This document shows, piece by piece, positions 7,639 through 64,000 of a stretch of 64,000 bases of DNA. The stretch lies in assembly GCA_030248225.1 (NCBI GenBank), contig JASANE010021177.1, positions 1-64,000 of the forward strand, given 5' to 3'. The position numbers were made by a program, and so were the translations under genes. The stretch's first letter is position 1. Every line of letters begins with the position of its first letter. Origin of the DNA: Trileptium ribeirensis (lineage: Eukaryota > Nematoda > Enoplea > Enoplida > Thoracostomopsidae). The notes under the pieces were generated by a model that was given only the letters and a program-made list of their open reading frames with translations, was not told where the DNA came from and did not search any database.

Positions 7639-8612
7639 TTAAAAAGGATGTTGATCGCGAATTTGGCCCACTACAGCTCCGAGGATGTTGTGGGAGAAAC
7701 GGTGGCGCCACTGCAACTCGATCAAAGTACGGTGGAATAATGTGTCGGGTATGCCTTGTCGACGCCTCATGAAGTTCTTAAGGGTTCCCAGAGGCCATCG
7801 ATGTTCTGGGTGTGGGCATAGACGTTGTCTGGGTTAACGAACTGGCCGTTGTGATGATTGACCGTTGCATGAAGATATGGCTGCGGATGGGGTAAGTTTG
7901 GTAACTGTCCGTGATGACGCGTGTGCCGGGCCGTATATGTTGCTGGATAAGAGGTATGATGGTCGCAGCGGTACGATTAGCAACCGAAAACAAAAGGCAG
8001 TTGCCGGTTTGACGCTCGATCATGCCGACGACCCATCCATGTTTCCTTCTGGGCATGCCGCGGTTATATTTTTGCCGAAAGAACATGGATTCGTCCACGT
8101 CAACATCAAGGCCTGGTCCTCCGGGTACAGTATTTTGGCAGTGTTGATTATCGTAGGCCACAGCAATGTCACGATAGTAGTTATACCAATTCGTTGCTGT
8201 GTCTGATGCAATGTTAGCCTGCTGCATAATCCATTCAGTGGGCAAATTGTCGATGTAGGCAAACATTACCAAAAGCGCAGTGAACAAGGAGATGTGTTGG
8301 CCGGCAAAGAATGAGTTATGGCGTATAGAGGACTTGTGGCGACATGCTTTGCATCGCCATTCATAATTGTCACCTCGGCCTAAGTCGCCTCGAGCCGCTA
8401 GATATATACATGGCCTCCCCGCACTCACATTTTCGGGAATTTGCAATTAAACCCCATTCAGCCGCTAGTTCTATTATGTCGTCATATGTCCGACATTGCT
8501 GTACAAATTGGGTGTAGGTCATACGAATGTTATCAACATTGTTCCGTTGAAAAACTCTAATAGGGTTAATAATGTTAAATCTGTTATTTGTTGGGCGTCC
8601 GCGGGCAGCCAT
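7639..8612 (-). pseudogene. IS1595/ISXO2-type (Merlin) transposase, frameshifted
   Basis: The minus-strand coding remnant starts at ATG 8612 (MAARGRPTNN). The frame then changes near 8400-8446, near 7870 and near 7775, and ends at 7639. The order of parts fits an IS1595-type DDE transposase: an N-terminal zinc ribbon (CEC then WRCKAC), the VDVDESMF segment with the first catalytic Asp, and the TDSYQTY segment with the second. A C-terminal HNGQFV...HTQNIDGLWEPL segment follows. The third acidic position reads Asp (NID) where Glu is usual in my memory of the family. Three frame breaks mean this copy cannot make an active enzyme. It lies in the loop of the inverted repeat, as expected for the element's own gene. 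Confidence 0.85.
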
Positions 8613-24840: not shown

Positions 24841-27146
24841 TCAGTTTTCCAAATAAGAAGCATGAGCGTCCCACAGTGCCTCAGGATTATCTTTAATAAC
24901 AAATTGAGCACCGCCTTTTGTGCGGGTGCTGCTTACTGGCTTCAGAGCAATCTCTTCCATCTCTACTGGTCCACAGATGATTTGTCGCAACTGCACAGCC
25001 GAAACGTCTGCTACTGGCGGCCATTCGAATCGATTTTGAGTACCCGGGACGCCTTGCAGAAATGAAAACGTTACTAATCCGTCGAGACAACTAGCAGCTT
25101 CGTTCGATATAGCAGTTATTTTTCCAAGGTACGCCTTCCTGGGGTTATCGAATGCGACGCCGAAAATACTTCCAACGATTTCTTCCTTTGGCTTTTGGAA
25201 AAGAATTATCAAGTCGGCCACATAGTCGTCGTATGTTAAACCGGCAGGACGTCTGGCTTCGTAACTTGCGAACGATGTTGAACTGGAATCGCTGCTGACA
25301 TCAGATTCAGAAGACGTGTCGTATTGATAGGTTTTCTTTTTCGGCTTTGGTTTGAATGACTTTCTTGGGCTGACGAGCGCTTTGCCTTTTCCTTCTTTCC
25401 GTTTATTGCTCTTTTCTTCAGCAATCTTACGTTGTTTCAAAAACGGCGATGTTGTTACTTTCTCGGCCATTTTCCGCTTTGGAACGACGTCTTCCTTCCG
25501 CTTTATTATTCCGGAAAATATTTGTTGGATTGTATCATCTCGTTCTGCATTCGGTGATGTTGTAAAAAGCCTTCGAGACACCGGTGTGCATTGTGATCCA
25601 CTACTGCTATGTGGCGTTTGAGACAATCTGGTTTCGTCGGGTGCGACCCACATAGGCACATAAGTCAATACCCATTTAGCTACAAATTGTGGACCAGGTT
25701 TGGGATATTGAGGCACTGGGTCATCTGGCGGCAATTCAGGAATATCAGCTGCAATGCCCAAATTTGTCTGCACTGATTTGCACGGGCTGTTGACCAACGG
25801 CTTCTTCGGCTTAGCCACGAAAACAGCATACTCGGCATCTGTCATTTCTGGCTTACCATCGCCCACCCACTTTTCATAGCAAGTGAGCAGATGAGGATCC
25901 AAACGAGTCGTATCGTACGCCCCCGGATCTAGCGGAAATATTCCAGTGCGTTTGAAGCCGGTCCTTATGTTATGCTCAGTCATATACTTTTCCCAAGCAG
26001 CCATAAGGAAGAAGCAAAATTCTGATCGCGAGAGCTTTTTGGCCCGAGAATTAACTTATTGGTCGGCAGCCAACATGTCGTTCCAACCCTTTTGAGAGGC
26101 CCAAATATGCCCTTATCAAGAGGCTGGAGCTGGTCCGTCGTATGAGCTGGAAGTTTGATAAGGATGACCTTTTCGCTGATGGCATATTCGATGACCCGCA
26201 CTGAAATATGAGACGTGTGGCCATCAAAAATAATAACCAACGGCCGCGTTTTCACAATTTCACAAAAATTTTTGAACCAATCAGCGAAAATATCTGCGGT
26301 CATCCACCCTTTGGTGGATACCGAGATGTCGTATTCATCTAAACCCACGGGTTTCCGTTGTAGACCACCAAAAACTATTTTAGGTGGAAGCGCATTCCCG
26401 TTGGCGTTGCAGCAGGCTAAAACTGTTATGTTTGTACGGCCTTCACCTTGCCTCTGCATGATTGTTCGCTCTCCAGAACCGCCAAGAACTTGCTTTGGTT
26501 CAGGATCGATGGAAAACGCTGTTTCGTCAAGATTCCATAATCGGCACGGAATAGACTGTTCGTCCATACCTACATCCAGCATAGCAGCTATTTCTTCTTT
26601 CAGCAGATCATAAAATTGGAAAATGTTGAACGGATTAGCAGTGTTCTCTGCGCGAACGTGAGATAGGGCGTTCGGTTTGCGCCGAGTTAAACTATGCCGG
26701 CTGCAAAAGGCGCTGCACCACTTTTGCTGTGGAGGCTTGTCGTACCATTGTTCAATATTGTGTAATTTACAGTAGTCCTGGACTAATAGAGGGACATCTT
26801 TGATACGAATACCGAACCCATTTCTAGCAAGTACACGGATGATGCTTGCAATCGTTTGTTCCTGACTGTTCGTAAGAGTAGCTGGCCTGCCACTGTGTCC
26901 AATTGTCCCGTAATTCGCAGCATATTGCGGTGCTGAGCCTTGGCGCTGTTTCACAGCAACGAATAACCGATAGACACTCATACCGTAGCTGCGCGCGACG
27001 TTTTCAAGCGTATATTTTTTACCAGTCGCTGGATTAATAGTATTTCTAGCAGTAATATATTCATTAGCTGCATCATCTAGATCTTTTGAAGACCATTTTT
27101 TATTTTTGTGTTGATAATAATAATACTTTTTGTCCTTTCTACCCAT
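24841..27146 (-). pseudogene. pogo/Tigger-type transposase, single broken region
   Basis: Minus-strand gene starting at ATG 27146 (MGRKDKKYYY). The N-terminus has a Psq-type helix-turn-helix (YTLENVARSYGMS), then a CENP-B-like DNA-binding region (IGHSGRPATLT ... KWCSAFCSRH). The DDE_1 catalytic core follows: LWNLDETAF (first Asp), VIIFDGHTSH (second) and LQPLDKG (third). The frame breaks just after FGPLKR, near 26085. A stop lies in the continuing frame near 26054, and the second frame (to 24841) carries the family's C-terminal region including GFKRTGIFPLD and a lysine-rich tail. All three catalytic Asp are kept, so decay is recent. The usual Tigger/jerky length is exceeded slightly by the long C-terminal tail. 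Confidence 0.9.
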
Positions 27147-27193
27147 TATATATATTATATCTATATACGAAAAACCTAAAAAAGCACCAATTA

Positions 27194-27277
27194 AAGGCGG
27201 CTTCACATTCTCATGGTGATAATAAATATTAGTTCAGTATTACACTTTCCATGTCAGTGAGCATGTGAAGCCGCCTT
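27194..27277. repeat. Inverted repeat upstream of the pogo transposase
   Basis: Perfect 15 bp arms AAGGCGGCTTCACAT (27194-27208) and ATGTGAAGCCGCCTT (27263-27277) are separated by 54 bp, 48 bp upstream of the transposase ATG. It could be a sub-terminal transposase-binding site, the outer end of the element or a small separate insertion. No copy is visible on the other side of the gene. Confidence 0.8.
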
Positions 27278-59071: not shown

Positions 59072-59894
59072 GTAAGCATACAGTTTATTATGTGGACGCA
59101 GCAGTGTCCCTATCATGTTTTGTGCCGATAGTGGTGCATTTTTTAAAGAAGTTTCTTACAATTTTTAAAAAAACCGGTGCTTCATTCTCTTGGAAGGTAT
59201 AAATATGGAAGAAGTACAGGTTGGTTGAGAAATATCCTACGTTGACTATTTATTTTTATAATTTCGTTCCTGGCGACATAAGATTTATTGCACGAACGGA
59301 GGGCATTTAATTAAGAAAATTTTTGAGAACACGGTTTTGAATGAATAATGATTTATTTATAGAGGCGACCTAGATTTTGGAAACATATTCTCTGAGGAAT
59401 AGGATAGGCTGCGCATATCAGAATATTGTTTCGTTTCCCTTTATATTTCAATTTACTGTTCATTTTAGTTCATTGATAACAGACTAATGCATAAATTATT
59501 GGCTTGTAATGAAGTATGTTACAAAATAAATTTATTCTCTTTACCTAAGCGGTTGGCTCGCACAGGCTGTCAGAAGTAGCTAATGTTTTGTATTTGCGAC
59601 AAACAGGGTTATTGATATAAATATGCTCACAGGAGTGATAGGGGAGTAGATATAAAATGGGGGTTTTACCCCCCCCCCCACCGGTGGTGGTGATGGTGGA
59701 TGTATGTGTATGGGAGCGTGGGTATATATGTCTAGCATACCTGTATAAATATGTGAACTTTATATATATAAAGATATATGCAAATAAATACATACACACA
59801 GATAACTTTAAATTGGATTTTGGCTTGCCATACGTACACAGTAATACATGTATTTAGTGTATATATAGCATACATATATGTATATTGCTAGTTC
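59072..59894. other. Spacer with simple repeats
   Basis: Contains a C10 run followed by ACCGGTGGTGGTGATGGTGG at about 59670-59700, and AT/TG-rich microsatellite-like sequence to the ribozyme at 59895. No gene. The boundary of the virus-like element is probably in or below this stretch, but no terminal repeat was found. Confidence 0.45.
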
Positions 59895-59951
59895 AAACGT
59901 TTCGGCCGTACCAAGGGCCTCATCAGACGGCTATAGGCTGCCGTGACGTTT
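59895..59951 (-). ncRNA. Type III hammerhead ribozyme (HHR1)
   Basis: Read on the minus strand. Stem III is AAACGU (59951-59946) paired with ACGUUU (59900-59895), and the cleavage triplet GUC ends at 59945. Stem I is ACGGC (59944-59940)/GCCGU (59931-59927) with loop AGCCUAUA. The core is CUGAUGA (59926-59920), stem II GGCC/GGCC (59919-59916, 59907-59904) with loop CUUGGUAC, then GAAA (59903-59900). Every conserved core base is present and all three helices are perfect. Cleavage is predicted between 59945 and 59944. Just 5' is an encoded A8 tract (59956-59949) and an AATAAA. It lies 3' of the 143-residue ORF on the same strand. Confidence 0.92.
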
Positions 59952-60016
59952 TTTTTCATTTTTTATTAAACACAAAAACACACAATTAGCACACAATATT
60001 CATCTCATATTTTCAT

Positions 60017-60448
60017 CTACACCCGTTTAGCACCGTACTGATGTATCAGCTGATACTTTCGTCGCCGCGCATGAACTGGGTGGTCATAGACGAATGCCGT
60101 TATGACTACATTGCCTTGTGTTACAACACATAATATGTAGCCTGGTTCTCCTGTCCATCCTCGATGACCAACGACTTTGTTGAATGTTTTGAAGTGCTCC
60201 ACCCGATTATCGTGCCGCTCGAAGTGATCGTCTCCACTGAACACCGTTTCGAACATATTTGCTTCGTAGTCGTTAATGAGACGTGAATTTCCGGCAGCAA
60301 CATGACCGGTGTGACCGTGCTGGAAGTGTTTGCTAAACTGCAGAGACATAACCAACCGACCGTTCTCGATGAATGAAAGCGTAAACTGGTTTAATGTCAC
60401 ATAGTACACAGCCTTTTTAAAACATTTCATCCCTGCCAAGGGAATCAT
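60017..60448 (-). CDS. 143-residue ORF between two ribozymes, unknown
   Basis: An ATG at 60448 lies in stem II of the upstream ribozyme. A second ATG seven codons in (MKCFKKAV) is an alternative start outside the helix. The protein is rich in His (11), has a segment FQHGHTGHVAAGNSRLIND and a basic C-terminus (HARRRKYQLIH ... GAKRV). No signal peptide or membrane span is evident. Codon usage is balanced, unlike the AT-rich flanks, so it is probably a real gene. I do not recognise the family. The ORF fills most of the 526-nt interval between the two predicted cleavage sites, and its stop (60017) is 73 nt from the HHR1 cut. Confidence 0.6.
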   Translation of the reverse strand: MIPLAGMKCFKKAVYYVTLNQFTLSFIENGRLVMSLQFSKHFQHGHTGHVAAGNSRLINDYEANMFETVFSGDDHFERHDNRVEHFKTFNKVVGHRGWTGEPGYILCVVTQGNVVITAFVYDHPVHARRRKYQLIHQYGAKRV

Positions 60449-60478
60449 CAGACGGCTTAACGGCTACCGTTATGTTTT
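60419..60478 (-). ncRNA. Type III hammerhead ribozyme, variant (HHR2)
   Basis: Minus strand. Stem III is AAAACAU (60478-60472) with AUGUUUU (60425-60419), and the cleavage triplet AUA ends at 60471. Stem I is ACGGU/GCCGU with one U-G wobble and loop AGCCGUUAA. The core is CUGAUGA (60451-60445) and GAAA (60428-60425). Stem II is UCCC/GGGA with loop UUGGCA, but the closing position next to the core is a U-U mismatch (60444, 60429) where G-C is usual. So it may cleave more slowly than HHR1. It too is preceded by an encoded A8 tract (60482-60475). Predicted cut between 60471 and 60470. Confidence 0.8.
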
Positions 60479-60635
60479 TTTTCTTTTTTTACTTCAAATC
60501 AAACATATTACACAATTTAATAATATCATGATAATACTCAACATACAACATAGGGTATGACAGTGATAATTCATACAGTGACTGTTTAAAAGTGTTTTCA
60601 TTCTTCGTTATGAATTCAACTGCCTTCATCACTGC
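60479..60635 (-). other. 3' untranslated-like spacer before HHR2
   Basis: AT-rich, without an open frame. The last 45 nt before HHR2 (ATTGTGTAATATGTTTGATT and A7/A8 tracts) resemble the last 45 nt before HHR1 (AATTGTGTGTTTTTGTGTTT and A8). So the two ribozyme units share more than the ribozyme core. Confidence 0.5.
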
Positions 60636-60794
60636 TTATCGTCGTTGTTTAACTTTGATCAAATTTTCTTCCTCCTTTGATCGCCCGTCGATATAGTCAC
60701 CCGTAGCTTGACATTGACGCCGAAACTCATCCACCTGCTTTTGCCAATAAGCAATTTCGTTTTGAAGATAAGTATTGCGCACGTAATGTTCCAT
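60636..60794 (-). CDS. 52-residue charged protein, start overlaps previous stop
   Basis: The ATG at 60794-60792 shares its A with the TAA of the membrane-protein gene (TAATG). The product begins MEHYVRNTYLQNEIAYWQKQ, is highly charged and helix-prone (EEENLIKVKQRR at the end), and has no membrane span. It could form a coiled coil. The family is unknown. The overlap implies reinitiation or a coupled viral mRNA. Confidence 0.5.
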   Translation of the reverse strand: MEHYVRNTYLQNEIAYWQKQVDEFRRQCQATGDYIDGRSKEEENLIKVKQRR

Positions 60795-61294
60795 TATTGA
60801 TACGCTTCACGAATGTTGATTCCAATGTATCGTTGACGAAGCACTTTATCCAAGTCGTATGTTGCGAGATGTTTCATAAATCTTGCTCCCATATAATGGT
60901 TGCTGAATGTGTATCCGCGATAAATCCCAACCGATCGTACCAATATGAGTCCGTGTTGATATGGTATCGATAGTTTCATAAACAAATGTTCAAACACGTT
61001 GAATAGATAAGCAATATATGCGCTCCATTTAAGACCTTTCGGTGGTTTGAGTCGATCGTTGAAATGTAGATTTGACGACGTTTTGTTAATCCACTTGACA
61101 TCGTAACCATTTCCTGGGTTCCATTTTTCGCTTGATCCGTTTGTCCAATTGTCGAAGCATAAAGTTTTCGCACAATTTTCGAGCTTCCACGTAGTAATAG
61201 TATTACGTTTTACACTTATGAACAATATAACCTTCTCCACAACAACAGCTACAACTAACACAACATATAATGTAATAAAACGTTTGTTATCCAT
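60794..61294 (-). CDS. Small membrane protein, unknown viral gene
   Basis: 166 residues from ATG 61294. A single hydrophobic segment at residues 6-28 (FITLYVVLVVAVVVEKVILF) acts as a signal anchor. It is followed by a region with three N-glycosylation sequons (NWT 49, NGS 52, NKT 70), which suggests that the C-terminal part faces the lumen or outside. The rest (GLKWSAYIAYLFNVFEHLF, IPYQHGLILVRSVG) is mixed and could include a re-entrant helix. It starts 29 bp after the capsid gene stop. No family was recognised; a membrane-penetration or virion membrane role is only a guess from position. Confidence 0.6.
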   Translation of the reverse strand: MDNKRFITLYVVLVVAVVVEKVILFISVKRNTITTWKLENCAKTLCFDNWTNGSSEKWNPGNGYDVKWINKTSSNLHFNDRLKPPKGLKWSAYIAYLFNVFEHLFMKLSIPYQHGLILVRSVGIYRGYTFSNHYMGARFMKHLATYDLDKVLRQRYIGINIREAYQ

Positions 61295-61322: not shown

Positions 61323-62683
61323 TTAAGACGTTTTATTCCAAAATACTTCTTTATTTGAGTTTATGTTCAATTCAGCTGTAAATTCTCCCATTGTGAAAAT
61401 CACAATAGCCTTCTTTAACTCTTCCGCAAAATCAATAGAAAGTCTCAATTGCCCGTCTGGTGGGTTTGAAAGATAAGTGCAATCACTGCTATGATCCTTA
61501 CTTAGATCAATACAGAAGATTTGGTAACCTGCACCATGTCGAAAGCCAACTTCAGTTAATCCTAAATTTTCTGTTCTGCCGTGTAATGCATATAATGTAT
61601 TATAAAACAATCTCATATCGTTACCAGCCTTACACGGTAAAGATATATTGCACGGGTATCTATCATCATTCATAAACACGCTAAAACTATTCATATCTGG
61701 TAAACTTAACTTAAACAAGTTTGATTTCGGTGCACCAGCATACGTTTCTTGTGTTATTCCCCAAATGTATATTCTACGTGGTAATGATCCTTCAAAAATC
61801 GTCCAATCCACATTCTGTAACCCTTTATTTAATGAAAGAGTTTGAATCTTGTACCGTATATTAGGAAATTTAACCCCACTACTATTTAAAATTTTATCTT
61901 GGTACTCGAGAGAGCTTGTTTTGTTAGTCTTGCCTTTGGTATGTAAAGCTTAAAATCATTTATTCGAACTAAAAGTTTATTAGCTGGTTCATGTAACAAT
62001 ATCAGTGATGGTGAACTTCGAGTAAATTTAAACTCTAGTCTAGTTTTCTGGGGTAGATAAGTCGGTGTTAACTGTGAGTCTGTAATGATGGGAAAGTAAA
62101 GTTCACATTTCTGTGACATTGAAGTCAACGCGTTCCTATAAACAGAACCTTCATTATCTTGTAGATCATCAAACATATACGTCTGATCGGGTTTATAAAG
62201 ACATCCTGCGAAATATTGATTTCTTTGCTCTTCACTCATATGTAGCATGTACAATATATACGTCATCCAAGGGTAATGCTTTTGGTTAAAGGTTACTGGT
62301 TCTCCATTTATTTTCATTTCAACTGAAGAAAAAAGTGCGTACCCAAACATATTGCATGGTGTAAATTTAAGATTTGCGTCCTTGATCTCTTTGCCATCAC
62401 CCTTGATAATTTGAAATTCAATATATGCAAAAATTTCTGATATATCAACTAAATCAAAAGCGCTTTCGCCAATTTTAAAACGAAACGAATCATCCGTATC
62501 GATGCTTGGTAACGTTGTTTCACATGCGACTTCCACCAGCTGTGTCGAGATGATCGATTGCTGAACGGGGTATTGATTCCCCTGCCAGTTAAGTTTTTCA
62601 ACGCCGCATACGTTTGTCATGTTTCTTTGTTTTCTTCTTGCGTTTATCCTTTTTAAGACTTTTCTTCTTCTTCTTGGGTACAT
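61323..62683 (-). pseudogene. Double-jelly-roll major capsid protein homologue, frameshifted
   Basis: Two open blocks, 62683-61886 and 61811-61323, are in different frames. The second frame stays open upstream past the stop of the first, so one single-base indel near 61890-61900 explains the break. The first block holds the N-terminal jelly roll (SFRFKIGESAFDLVDISEIF, then CNMFGYALFSSVEMKINGEP and YPWMTYILYML). The second holds the C-terminal one (LPRRIYIWGITQETYAGAP, GAGYQIFCIDLS, LRLSIDFAEELKKAIVIF). This order matches the F54H12.2-like family, the Polinton/adintovirus major capsid (hexon-like) protein. The likely start is ATG 62620 (MTNVCGVEKLNWQ), because the 21 residues before it are out-of-frame reading of the lysine-rich gene. 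Total length is about 430 residues, usual for the family. Confidence 0.82.
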
Positions 62684-62834: not shown

Positions 62835-63373
62835 TTAAATTTGTGAGTCTACCACTTGAAACTCTAGTACTTTAAATACGCAATTGTTCAACTGTAAATC
62901 GACGGTATTTTTCACATGTAAAAGTTGTTTAAATCTTCCGTTGACTAGTCGTTCCTTAACGAATGAACACATTATAAATTTTGGTTTGTTATATTCAAGG
63001 TTCAAACACTTTGTACCTGCATGCTTGCCGTTCTTGAGATGTGAAGACTCGATCCAAATAATGTCTGAAGTTCGCGAAACAGTTTAATTTCTGCGTTCTC
63101 AAGTAAGTAGACATTGACGCGGTCACAGCTAGGGTTAAGCGAAAATTCAGTACTTTTGTTTAGGTATGATAACAAGCTATCAACAGTATAAAATACCTTA
63201 TCAACCGTAAATCTCTTCCAAGCCTTGTTTGCGTAATATTCAACGGTGCCTCCCTGTACATTTATATATCTATCGGGGAGCTCCACATCCAATGCTTTTA
63301 CTCCGTCGCGCAAAATGCCGTGGGGAACTCAACGAACCTGATCACTCAAGTTACAAACAATGACGACTTCCAT
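62835..63373 (-). pseudogene. Penton/minor-capsid-like protein remnant
   Basis: It begins at ATG 63373 (MEVVIVCNLSDQV), meets an in-frame TGA at about 63331-63329, and continues in the same frame as an open block to 63002. It then continues in a different frame (ATG 62972 to TAA 62837-62835, segment VNGRFKQLLHVKNT). The middle has the pattern of a protein commonly found next to the F54H12.2-like capsid gene: short strands around an ALDVELPDRY segment, then FYTVDSLLSYLNKSTEF and VNVYLLENAEIKLFRELQTL ending in a hydrophobic LFG. That partner is often considered the penton or minor capsid protein. The assignment is from pattern only, and the gene is short because of the breaks. Confidence 0.5.
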
Positions 63374-63389
63374 GATTAATAACAGTTGT

Positions 63390-64000
63390 TTACTGAAGCC
63401 TTTTAAGAATATTGTATATATTATTACACGATAAATAGAAATCATTTACTGATTTACAACCTGTTACTACGATATTCCCACTACCATACACCAATGCTAC
63501 ACATTTGTCGAGGGTTAATTTCATGCTGTTGTGAAGCTCTGTTTCATACATTACCGTGTACTGGTGTCTAAGACTTTCATAAATACTTGGTAAACTCAAC
63601 TTAAACCCACTTCTCAACATACCAACCACATTCTTCAGCTCAATCGCGAATTCCTCAATACATCGATAATCCAATTTCTCAATTTCTTCTTTCACTTTAA
63701 CCACAATTTCTCTACCTTCCGCCTCTGATCTAACACCTACCAACACCACTTTTCCATTTGAAAATAGTAAAACTGTACCCCTGGGTTTGAATTTCCGTAT
63801 ACCACCATTAAACCGTAACATATCATAATCAAAGTTATCAATTTCACACGATAAATATAACAAATCAACGTTACATCCAATGTTTGTCGTTAATGTCATA
63901 TTTGTAATCATTTGTCTCGAATTTTCATCCAAAGTCCTCCCAAATTGTTCTGACCCTTCCACTTCGTAACGTCTCTGCTTTCTGAGTCTTTGTTGCTGAT
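63390..64000 (-). CDS. TATA-box-binding protein homologue, 5' end outside window
   Basis: The frame is open from the window edge to the stop at 63390. The visible core of ~170 residues has the two direct repeats of TBP. Repeat 1 runs from MITNMTLTTNIGC through LRFNGGIRKFKPRGTVLLFS to NGKVVLVGVRSE. Repeat 2 runs from FAIELKNVVG through HQYTVMYETEL and ALVYGSGNIVVTG to NIYNILKRL. Numbering from codon 63962, the DNA-kinking Phe pair of repeat 1 is kept (F51, F67). In repeat 2 the equivalent positions are Thr136 (or Tyr135) and Tyr159. The upstream extension is basic and Gln/Arg-rich. It lies 16 bp upstream of the penton-like gene, same strand, in a viral block, so it is likely a virus-encoded initiation factor for late or all viral promoters. 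It is far more divergent than any cellular TBP I know. Confidence 0.85.
   Translation of the reverse strand, partial: QQQRLRKQRRYEVEGSEQFGRTLDENSRQMITNMTLTTNIGCNVDLLYLSCEIDNFDYDMLRFNGGIRKFKPRGTVLLFSNGKVVLVGVRSEAEGREIVVKVKEEIEKLDYRCIEEFAIELKNVVGMLRSGFKLSLPSIYESLRHQYTVMYETELHNSMKLTLDKCVALVYGSGNIVVTGCKSVNDFYLSCNNIYNILKRLQ

Follow-up and report, generated by a model that had tools for sequence, protein, structure and literature searches.

Type III hammerhead ribozymes behind stop codons of a Maverick/Polinton-type element family: candidate 3′-end modules of its transcription units

The role of the hammerhead ribozymes found in animal genomes is still poorly known. Plant retrozymes carry type III hammerheads and occur as monomers in LTR dimers with PBS and PPT. 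In animal retrozymes, the hammerheads are of type I and form short tandem repeats (PMC7229834). Penelope-like elements and Terminons are mobile elements that combine hammerheads with a protein, the minimal type I hammerheads lying in the repeats of reverse-transcriptase elements (PMC6431247, PMC7229834). Atypical type III hammerheads were documented in deltavirus-like RNAs from toad and termite and in termite and dipteran genomes (de la Pena et al. 2021, PMC7936874). In the deltavirus-like agents the ribozymes are present on both polarities of a circular RNA, and in termite genomes they are solitary motifs that lack a recognizable ORF in the surrounding 2 kb (PMC7936874). Related dipteran hammerheads are mentioned there as ‘in preparation’ and may therefore be known to others. 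In engineered mRNAs, a hammerhead makes the 3′ end behind an encoded A-stretch, the man-made tails being A60 to A110 (PMC2680333, PMC3203177). No report of hammerheads in Polintons or like DNA-virus elements was found in the open-licence PMC literature, covered mostly by titles and abstracts.

The window, i.e. the whole 64-kb stretch of DNA analysed here, holds the worn left end of a Maverick/Polinton-type virus-like element with two hammerheads, HHR1 and HHR2, on the minus strand (Table 1). The sequence-only reading of this locus had proposed that two sense-strand type III hammerheads flank an ORF beside capsid genes, with predicted cuts 526 nt apart. The cuts and their distance were reproduced as claimed, and the hammerheads found support in a sub-threshold Rfam match for HHR1, in matches of both to a model of our own, R2, and in covariation. 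As in retrozymes, the hammerheads sit in genomic repeats, and as in Penelope-like elements, a mobile element carries both hammerheads and a protein. The locus differs from the deltavirus-like RNAs and the termite motifs in that the hammerheads stand behind the stop codons of a DNA element with a poly(A)-signal-like hexamer, and from the engineered cassettes in that a natural, short A-rich tract and a hexamer precede the ribozyme. We take it as a familiar ribozyme in a setting that is new and informative.

Table 1. Coordinates of the features at the element end in the window (L numbers denote loci used for comparison)
Feature	Position	Strand	Remarks
Left terminus of element (AGTAGAT...)	59645	.	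matches at 7 other loci end exactly there; AGTAGAT end with differing flanks elsewhere
HHR1, type III hammerhead	59894..59952	-	predicted cut 59945/59944 (GUC)
AATAAA poly(A)-signal hexamer	59962..59967	-	23 nt before HHR1 cut
gp110, conserved protein gene	60017..60349	-	110 codons; the 143-codon ORF taken from its likely start
5′ part of 143-codon ORF	60350..60448	-	probably untranslated leader; frame and length vary among copies
HHR2, type III hammerhead	60419..60478	-	predicted cut 60471/60470 (AUA)
AGTAAA hexamer variant	60488..60493	-	overlaps gp109 stop codon
gp109, last capsid-block gene	60489..60809	-	in-frame stops here; intact copies elsewhere
gp166 (= gp186 in L020), between capsid gene and gp109	60794..61294	-	
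Capsid-like gene	61323..62683	-	two frames here: 61323-61811 and 61886-62683
Gene fragment	63002..63313	-	full length ~205 codons in L040 and L047 (by eye)
TATA-binding-protein-like gene	63390..63962	-	Pfam TBP PF00352, E 6.5e-30

Both motifs fit the type III architecture, with three helices around a CUGANGA...GAAA core and ending in helix III. HHR1 matches Rfam RF00008 with 43.3 bits (E 1.5e-6), short of the gathering score of 48.5, and HHR2 gave nothing with this family at E<=1 in the window and 11.9 bits (E 6) in a 121-nt scan. The model R2 was trained on 22 hammerheads, all of HHR1 or HHR3 type, including the window HHR1 and no HHR2-type sequence. It scored HHR2 with 64.0 bits (E 8.6e-21) and HHR1, itself a member of the training set, with 88.1 bits; these are the sole strong matches in 64 kb, the remaining ones reaching 11.9 bits at most. 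In the 28 distinct rows of the alignment, the H of the NUH cut site is never G, and the U before it is found in 26 and replaced by another base in 2. A U.U stands at the expected start of stem II in HHR2 and in four HHR2-type rows of the alignment, and cleavage of HHR2 may for this reason be slow. The half-motif occurs at 453 places genome-wide, as against 0 in the reversed control. By these sequence comparisons both window hammerheads are confirmed as real. The core pattern by itself says little (2 matches vs 0.62 expected; 2 reached by 13 of 100 shuffles), and the weight of the calls lies in the covariation of their relatives. The half-motif was also seen in nine stretches of viral contigs, eight of which have a model match at E<=1 (L085 has none); the best of these, with 41.7 bits by a genome-derived model, is L083 25-76 of an IMG/VR contig.

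Covariation was evaluated in 29 hammerheads from this genome, 28 of them distinct. Over the 29 hammerheads, pairing was found in 95% of cells, vs 24-44% in slid versions. Two-sided changes are present in 8 of 15 pairs (shuffles 4.6; 8 reached by 6 of 500), and 38 cells carry a two-sided change (shuffles 7.8; reached by 0 of 500), while the number of further pair types, 18, is less telling (shuffles 15.5; reached by 44 of 500). When sequences were folded alone, all three helices appeared in the minimum-energy fold in one of five (the HHR2 of L018) and not in the window HHR1, tertiary contacts being outside the folding model. Compared with shuffles, HHR1 alone folds clearly better (z -2.75), the others giving values from -0.76 to +1.18. 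The plan published for the deltavirus-like agents and some insect genomes has a helix I of ~5 bp, an internal loop with GCCR, a ~20-nt capping hairpin and a possible pairing of GCCR with YGGC in loop II (PMC7936874). Most HHR2 copies, such as that of L018, resemble it, with a short helix I, the internal loop GCCA or GCCG, the capping hairpin and UGGC in loop II; the window HHR2 is without the capping hairpin. Of the 9 distinct loop combinations in the HHR2 lineage, 8 would allow GCCR to pair with UGGC; HHR2B and HHR3 have other 4-bp options, and the loop pairing of HHR1 is weaker. Against shuffled loops, loop-loop complementarity ranks at <=5% in 2 of 27 combinations, both being the commonest HHR2 forms.

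On the minus strand, reading leftward, the order is the TBP-like gene, the capsid-like gene in two frames, gp166, gp109, HHR2, gp110, HHR1 and the element end at 59645. Farther along the contig follow an ATPase-like gene, an rve/Chromo integrase and a polymerase-like gene, and the window was therefore taken to hold the left end of a Maverick/Polinton-type element. The integrase in L039, on the contig of the window, matches rve PF00665 (E 1.9e-12) and Chromo (E 2.1e-9), and the ATPase-like, capsid-like and polymerase-like genes were assigned by eye. The capsid and polymerase assignments are those of weak matches and motifs. The capsid-like protein matches Pfam Capsid_N with E 0.028 and 0.072, both below the cut-off, and has no significant match in PDB and no homologs elsewhere in the protein database or viral contigs; a 731-codon ORF, judged by eye to carry PolB-like motifs, has no match in Pfam or PDB. 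The capsid gene has 104 matches across the 687-Mb genome. The gp109 match, C13928:60492-60809, contains two stops.

An AG... terminus is typical of Maverick/Polinton elements. The element agrees with them in the rve integrase with chromodomain, the terminal inverted repeats and this terminus, and differs by the ribozymes at its gene ends and by the TBP-like gene. In the literature consulted, TBP is placed in mirusviruses or other endogenous elements, not in Polintons. Homologs of the TBP-like gene were seen by eye in the capsid-block location in L040 (972-1691) and L051 (7975-8523). Ends ~12 kb apart align inverted in 7 of 7 compared pairs, the right end of the window copy itself not being seen on the contig. 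For a 6-bp target-site duplication, the single comparable pair has differing flanks and doubtful ends.

The distribution of the copies indicates that HHR2 closes the capsid-gene block and that HHR1 closes a small gene, gp110, in the terminal inverted repeat. Among 51 copies of the ORF, 38 lie behind a same-strand gp109, 11 stand by a polymerase-side gene at the opposite end and 2 have neither as neighbour; the sample is non-random (10 best matches including the window, 19 taken partly as pairs, 20 high-ranked and 2 in L046) and was drawn from 150 scored of 856 candidates. HHR2 is present in 38/38 copies with gp109 upstream, in 0/11 at the opposite end and in 2/2 of the remainder, and therefore belongs to the end of the capsid block. 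HHR1 is present in 27/38, 4/11 and 2/2, respectively, and was not found in 11 capsid-end and 7 opposite-end copies. Within 400 nt, the plain pattern gives HHR2 in 37, HHR1 in 30 and both in 24 of the 51, and with matches of a model R1, for which some of these loci had served as training sequences, the numbers become 40, 33 and 29. Ranking by the 143-codon protein favours HHR2-bearing copies, because the 3′ half of HHR2 encodes the first codons. Free of this bias are two tallies anchored in other genes, which used 100 of the 453 half-motif places, on contigs up to C3675. Of 34 gp109 copies among the matches listed (part of 150), 25 have an exact-pattern hammerhead 30-200 nt downstream; for the capsid gene, one lies 600-1100 nt downstream in 21 of 26 contigs among the matches listed (out of 104 matches, with one of two C3612 pieces omitted). 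The capsid-anchored misses include one with just 263 nt of contig remaining and one broken remnant, L079.

At five further loci the hammerhead at the end of the gp109 gene is intact in four and a broken remnant in L079. L072, L078 and L080 keep the gp109 hammerhead with no gp110 behind it within the stretch examined. Two genes of L051 run towards each other, and both have a separate sense-strand hammerhead at their end. In L072, by contrast, the stretch examined shows no hammerhead for the gene that converges on the capsid block. The sequence-only reading had seen hammerhead, ORF and hammerhead as one unit, a delimited RNA monomer. The unit found no support, as HHR2 tracks the capsid block and the capsid-block hammerhead is kept in lineages without the ORF behind it; judged from these copies, the bracket is a by-product. 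Sequence changes were seen immediately upstream of HHR2 in L059 and L070, and the upstream piece of L070 resembles, by eye, another capsid-block gene, so that these are probably deletion derivatives. The distance from the end of the gp110 ORF to HHR1 is 42 to 141 nt and once 935 nt (L028). Judged by eye, repeat expansions between gp110 and the element end in L020-L023 and L028-L029 seem to have shifted HHR1 away or deleted it.

The 143-codon ORF that the sequence-only reading had placed between the cuts does exist and begins inside HHR2. The conserved protein, on the other hand, is probably the 110 codons starting at 60349, since the first 33 codons differ in frame and length among copies and the genes in L074 and L077 begin there (L046 was also compared). 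The median dN/dS of gp110 is 0.20 (941 pairs with dS 0.05-1; 49 copies without a core stop), which indicates purifying selection. At least 150 places in the genome match the protein, and its copies are often paired ~12 kb apart on opposite strands because gp110 lies in the terminal inverted repeats. No match was obtained in Pfam or NCBIfam, and no outside homologs in the protein database or the viral contigs. A stretch in L072 (150-311), on the opposite strand ~1 kb past the hammerhead, is 31% identical to the window gp110 (E 0.019), and L073 (2196-2357) has a gp110-like stretch in a like place (E 0.008). The small ORF of L072, which by eye resembles gp110, gave no alignment with the gp110 of L074; L072 and L073 may carry a remote relative of gp110 on the opposite strand.

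The host machinery for cleavage and polyadenylation cuts at a short distance behind AAUAAA, and the offset of the hammerhead cuts is similar. Of 66 distinct sequences, 60 have a hexamer A[AGT]TAAA whose start lies 12-26 nt upstream of the cut; being related by descent, they do not count as 60 separate instances. The hexamer is present in 7.0% of random 35-mers of the element. The scan covered the 35 nt before the cut and dropped hammerheads with <130 nt upstream or without the stem I letters sought. AATAAA was found 39 times, AGTAAA 21 times and ATTAAA once, and the 21 AGTAAA cases weigh less because they all come from a single lineage, where hexamer and gp109 stop overlap. At the place of this AGTAAA, the lineages of L076 and L077 have AATAAA. 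The final 20 nt ahead of the cut are 65% A. The six sequences without a hexamer are three tandem ribozymes in L074, L059 and L070, where the upstream sequence differs, and L031. The position and strand of the hammerheads, their conservation and covariation and their offset from the hexamer are matters of direct observation. One search pattern for retrocopies with a poly(A) tract joined at the HHR1 cut gave 0, and the combined hexamer-hammerhead pattern gave 0 in bacterial and archaeal genomes.

The reading that we hold to be rather probable is that the hammerheads are 3′-end modules of transcription units in this Maverick/Polinton-type family. Each module would consist, in order, of stop codon, poly(A)-signal-like hexamer, A-rich stretch and type III hammerhead, with the cut 12-26 nt past the first base of the hexamer, the place at which the host machinery would cleave the RNA for polyadenylation. 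The ribozyme would fold during transcription and cut the nascent RNA, HHR2 giving the 3′ end of the capsid-block transcript and HHR1 that of the gp110 transcript. The freed end would carry a short encoded A-rich tract and a 2′,3′-cyclic phosphate, and could be used unchanged or be adenylated following repair. We infer the cleavage of the RNA in cells, and the ribozyme as the main route to the 3′ end. An engineered GFP mRNA with a hammerhead-made 3′ end needs no host machinery to be cut; it is untranslated in human cells and is rescued in part by an encoded A60 tail (PMC2680333). Ends that a ribozyme makes behind encoded A-tails are stable in fission yeast, but it counts against the proposal that such a tail could not be lengthened there when the construct had no poly(A) signals (PMC3203177). 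In budding yeast, ribozyme-made ends can reportedly acquire a tail (cited in PMC3203177).

If true, this would be the natural counterpart of a cassette that we know solely from laboratory constructs. The hammerheads here have a recurring address: in an abundant virus-like element they follow stop codons at a set distance from the hexamer, and this makes their function directly testable. A wider claim is put forward tentatively, as one that may well fail: in a lineage of eukaryotic DNA viruses, built-in ribozymes at the position of host poly(A) cleavage would form the 3′ ends of the mRNAs in place of the host endonuclease step, and such elements could have given rise to the orphan type III hammerheads of insect genomes as well as to the hammerheads of deltavirus-like agents. 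The element is also a candidate host for orphan type III hammerheads of the deltavirus-like-agent class. It is speculation that the element supplies its own TBP-like factor together with its own 3′-end cutter.

The main rival is an expression brake, in which the ribozyme removes the poly(A) tail or destroys the message and so silences the integrated capsid genes until cleavage is inhibited. Its anatomy would be identical to that of a 3′-end module, and the discontinuous hammerhead in mammalian CLEC2 3′ UTRs provides a precedent. The untranslated GFP mRNA in human cells, ended by a ribozyme without an A-tail, is likewise in its favour (PMC2680333). Nevertheless, the cut lies behind the hexamer at an approximately normal distance and behind the A-rich tract, so that the signal is spared, whereas a brake could be placed anywhere along the transcript; we regard the brake as unlikely, though it deserves to be kept in mind. 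Since HHR2 stands between two same-strand genes and gp110 in the window starts ~120 nt past the cut, HHR2 might instead split the capsid block from gp110 and give gp110 an RNA of its own. This processing of a polycistronic transcript is improbable: the gp110 RNA would have a 5′-OH end, the hammerhead is kept where no same-strand gp110 follows (L072, L078, L080 and L051, in the stretch examined), and gp110 at the opposite end is without HHR2. SL1 spliced-leader genes gave no match in a search whose control was likewise silent. Inherited passenger motifs with no present role are given about as little credit. The window, with gp109 and the capsid gene broken and both motifs kept, looks like a young relic and suits them, but two-sided stem changes across lineages and the steady hexamer distance point to selection.

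Least probable of all is a ribozyme-delimited RNA replicon of the retrozyme, Penelope-like or deltavirus-like kind that encodes the ORF by way of a circular RNA. The 526-nt monomer between the two predicted cuts suggests it, the hammerhead class resembles that of the deltavirus-like agents (PMC7936874), and L046 4213-5565 (C19027) contains a tandem double unit, two hammerhead-gp110-hammerhead stretches with four hammerheads in total. These two units are separate, however, and share no common ribozyme; 49 of 51 ORF copies lie inside the larger element beside gp109 or the polymerase-side gene, the spacing between ORF end and HHR1 is variable, and all 11 opposite-end copies are without HHR2. As individual candidates, a retrozyme was rejected by the placement of those 49 copies and by the purifying selection on the protein, and a Penelope-like element because the ORF of 110-143 codons has no family match and no reverse transcriptase was recognised. 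A deltavirus-like agent was rejected after a search of both window strands, which gave strong matches on the minus strand only, and no antigen-like Pfam match; the ORF being without a family match, neither a reverse transcriptase nor an antigen was recognised. The suggestion that a protein-coding RNA delimited by ribozymes was undescribed went too far, as the circular RNAs of deltavirus-like agents with type III hammerheads encode the delta antigen (PMC7936874).

Some observations lie beside these questions. In L074 (1541-1773, C3615) four tandem hammerheads with a period of 58 nt follow gp110. L075 (1074-1211, C3216) has two short, weak hammerhead-like motifs of 26-27 bits, ~90 nt apart, and by eye no recognised element gene nearby. 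BEL/Pao-like retroelement ORFs were seen by eye on the contig of the window (L019 2013-7364 = C13928:70013-75364), and ORFs at 24841-27206 and 7778-8446 of the window resemble, also by eye, the transposases of DNA transposons.
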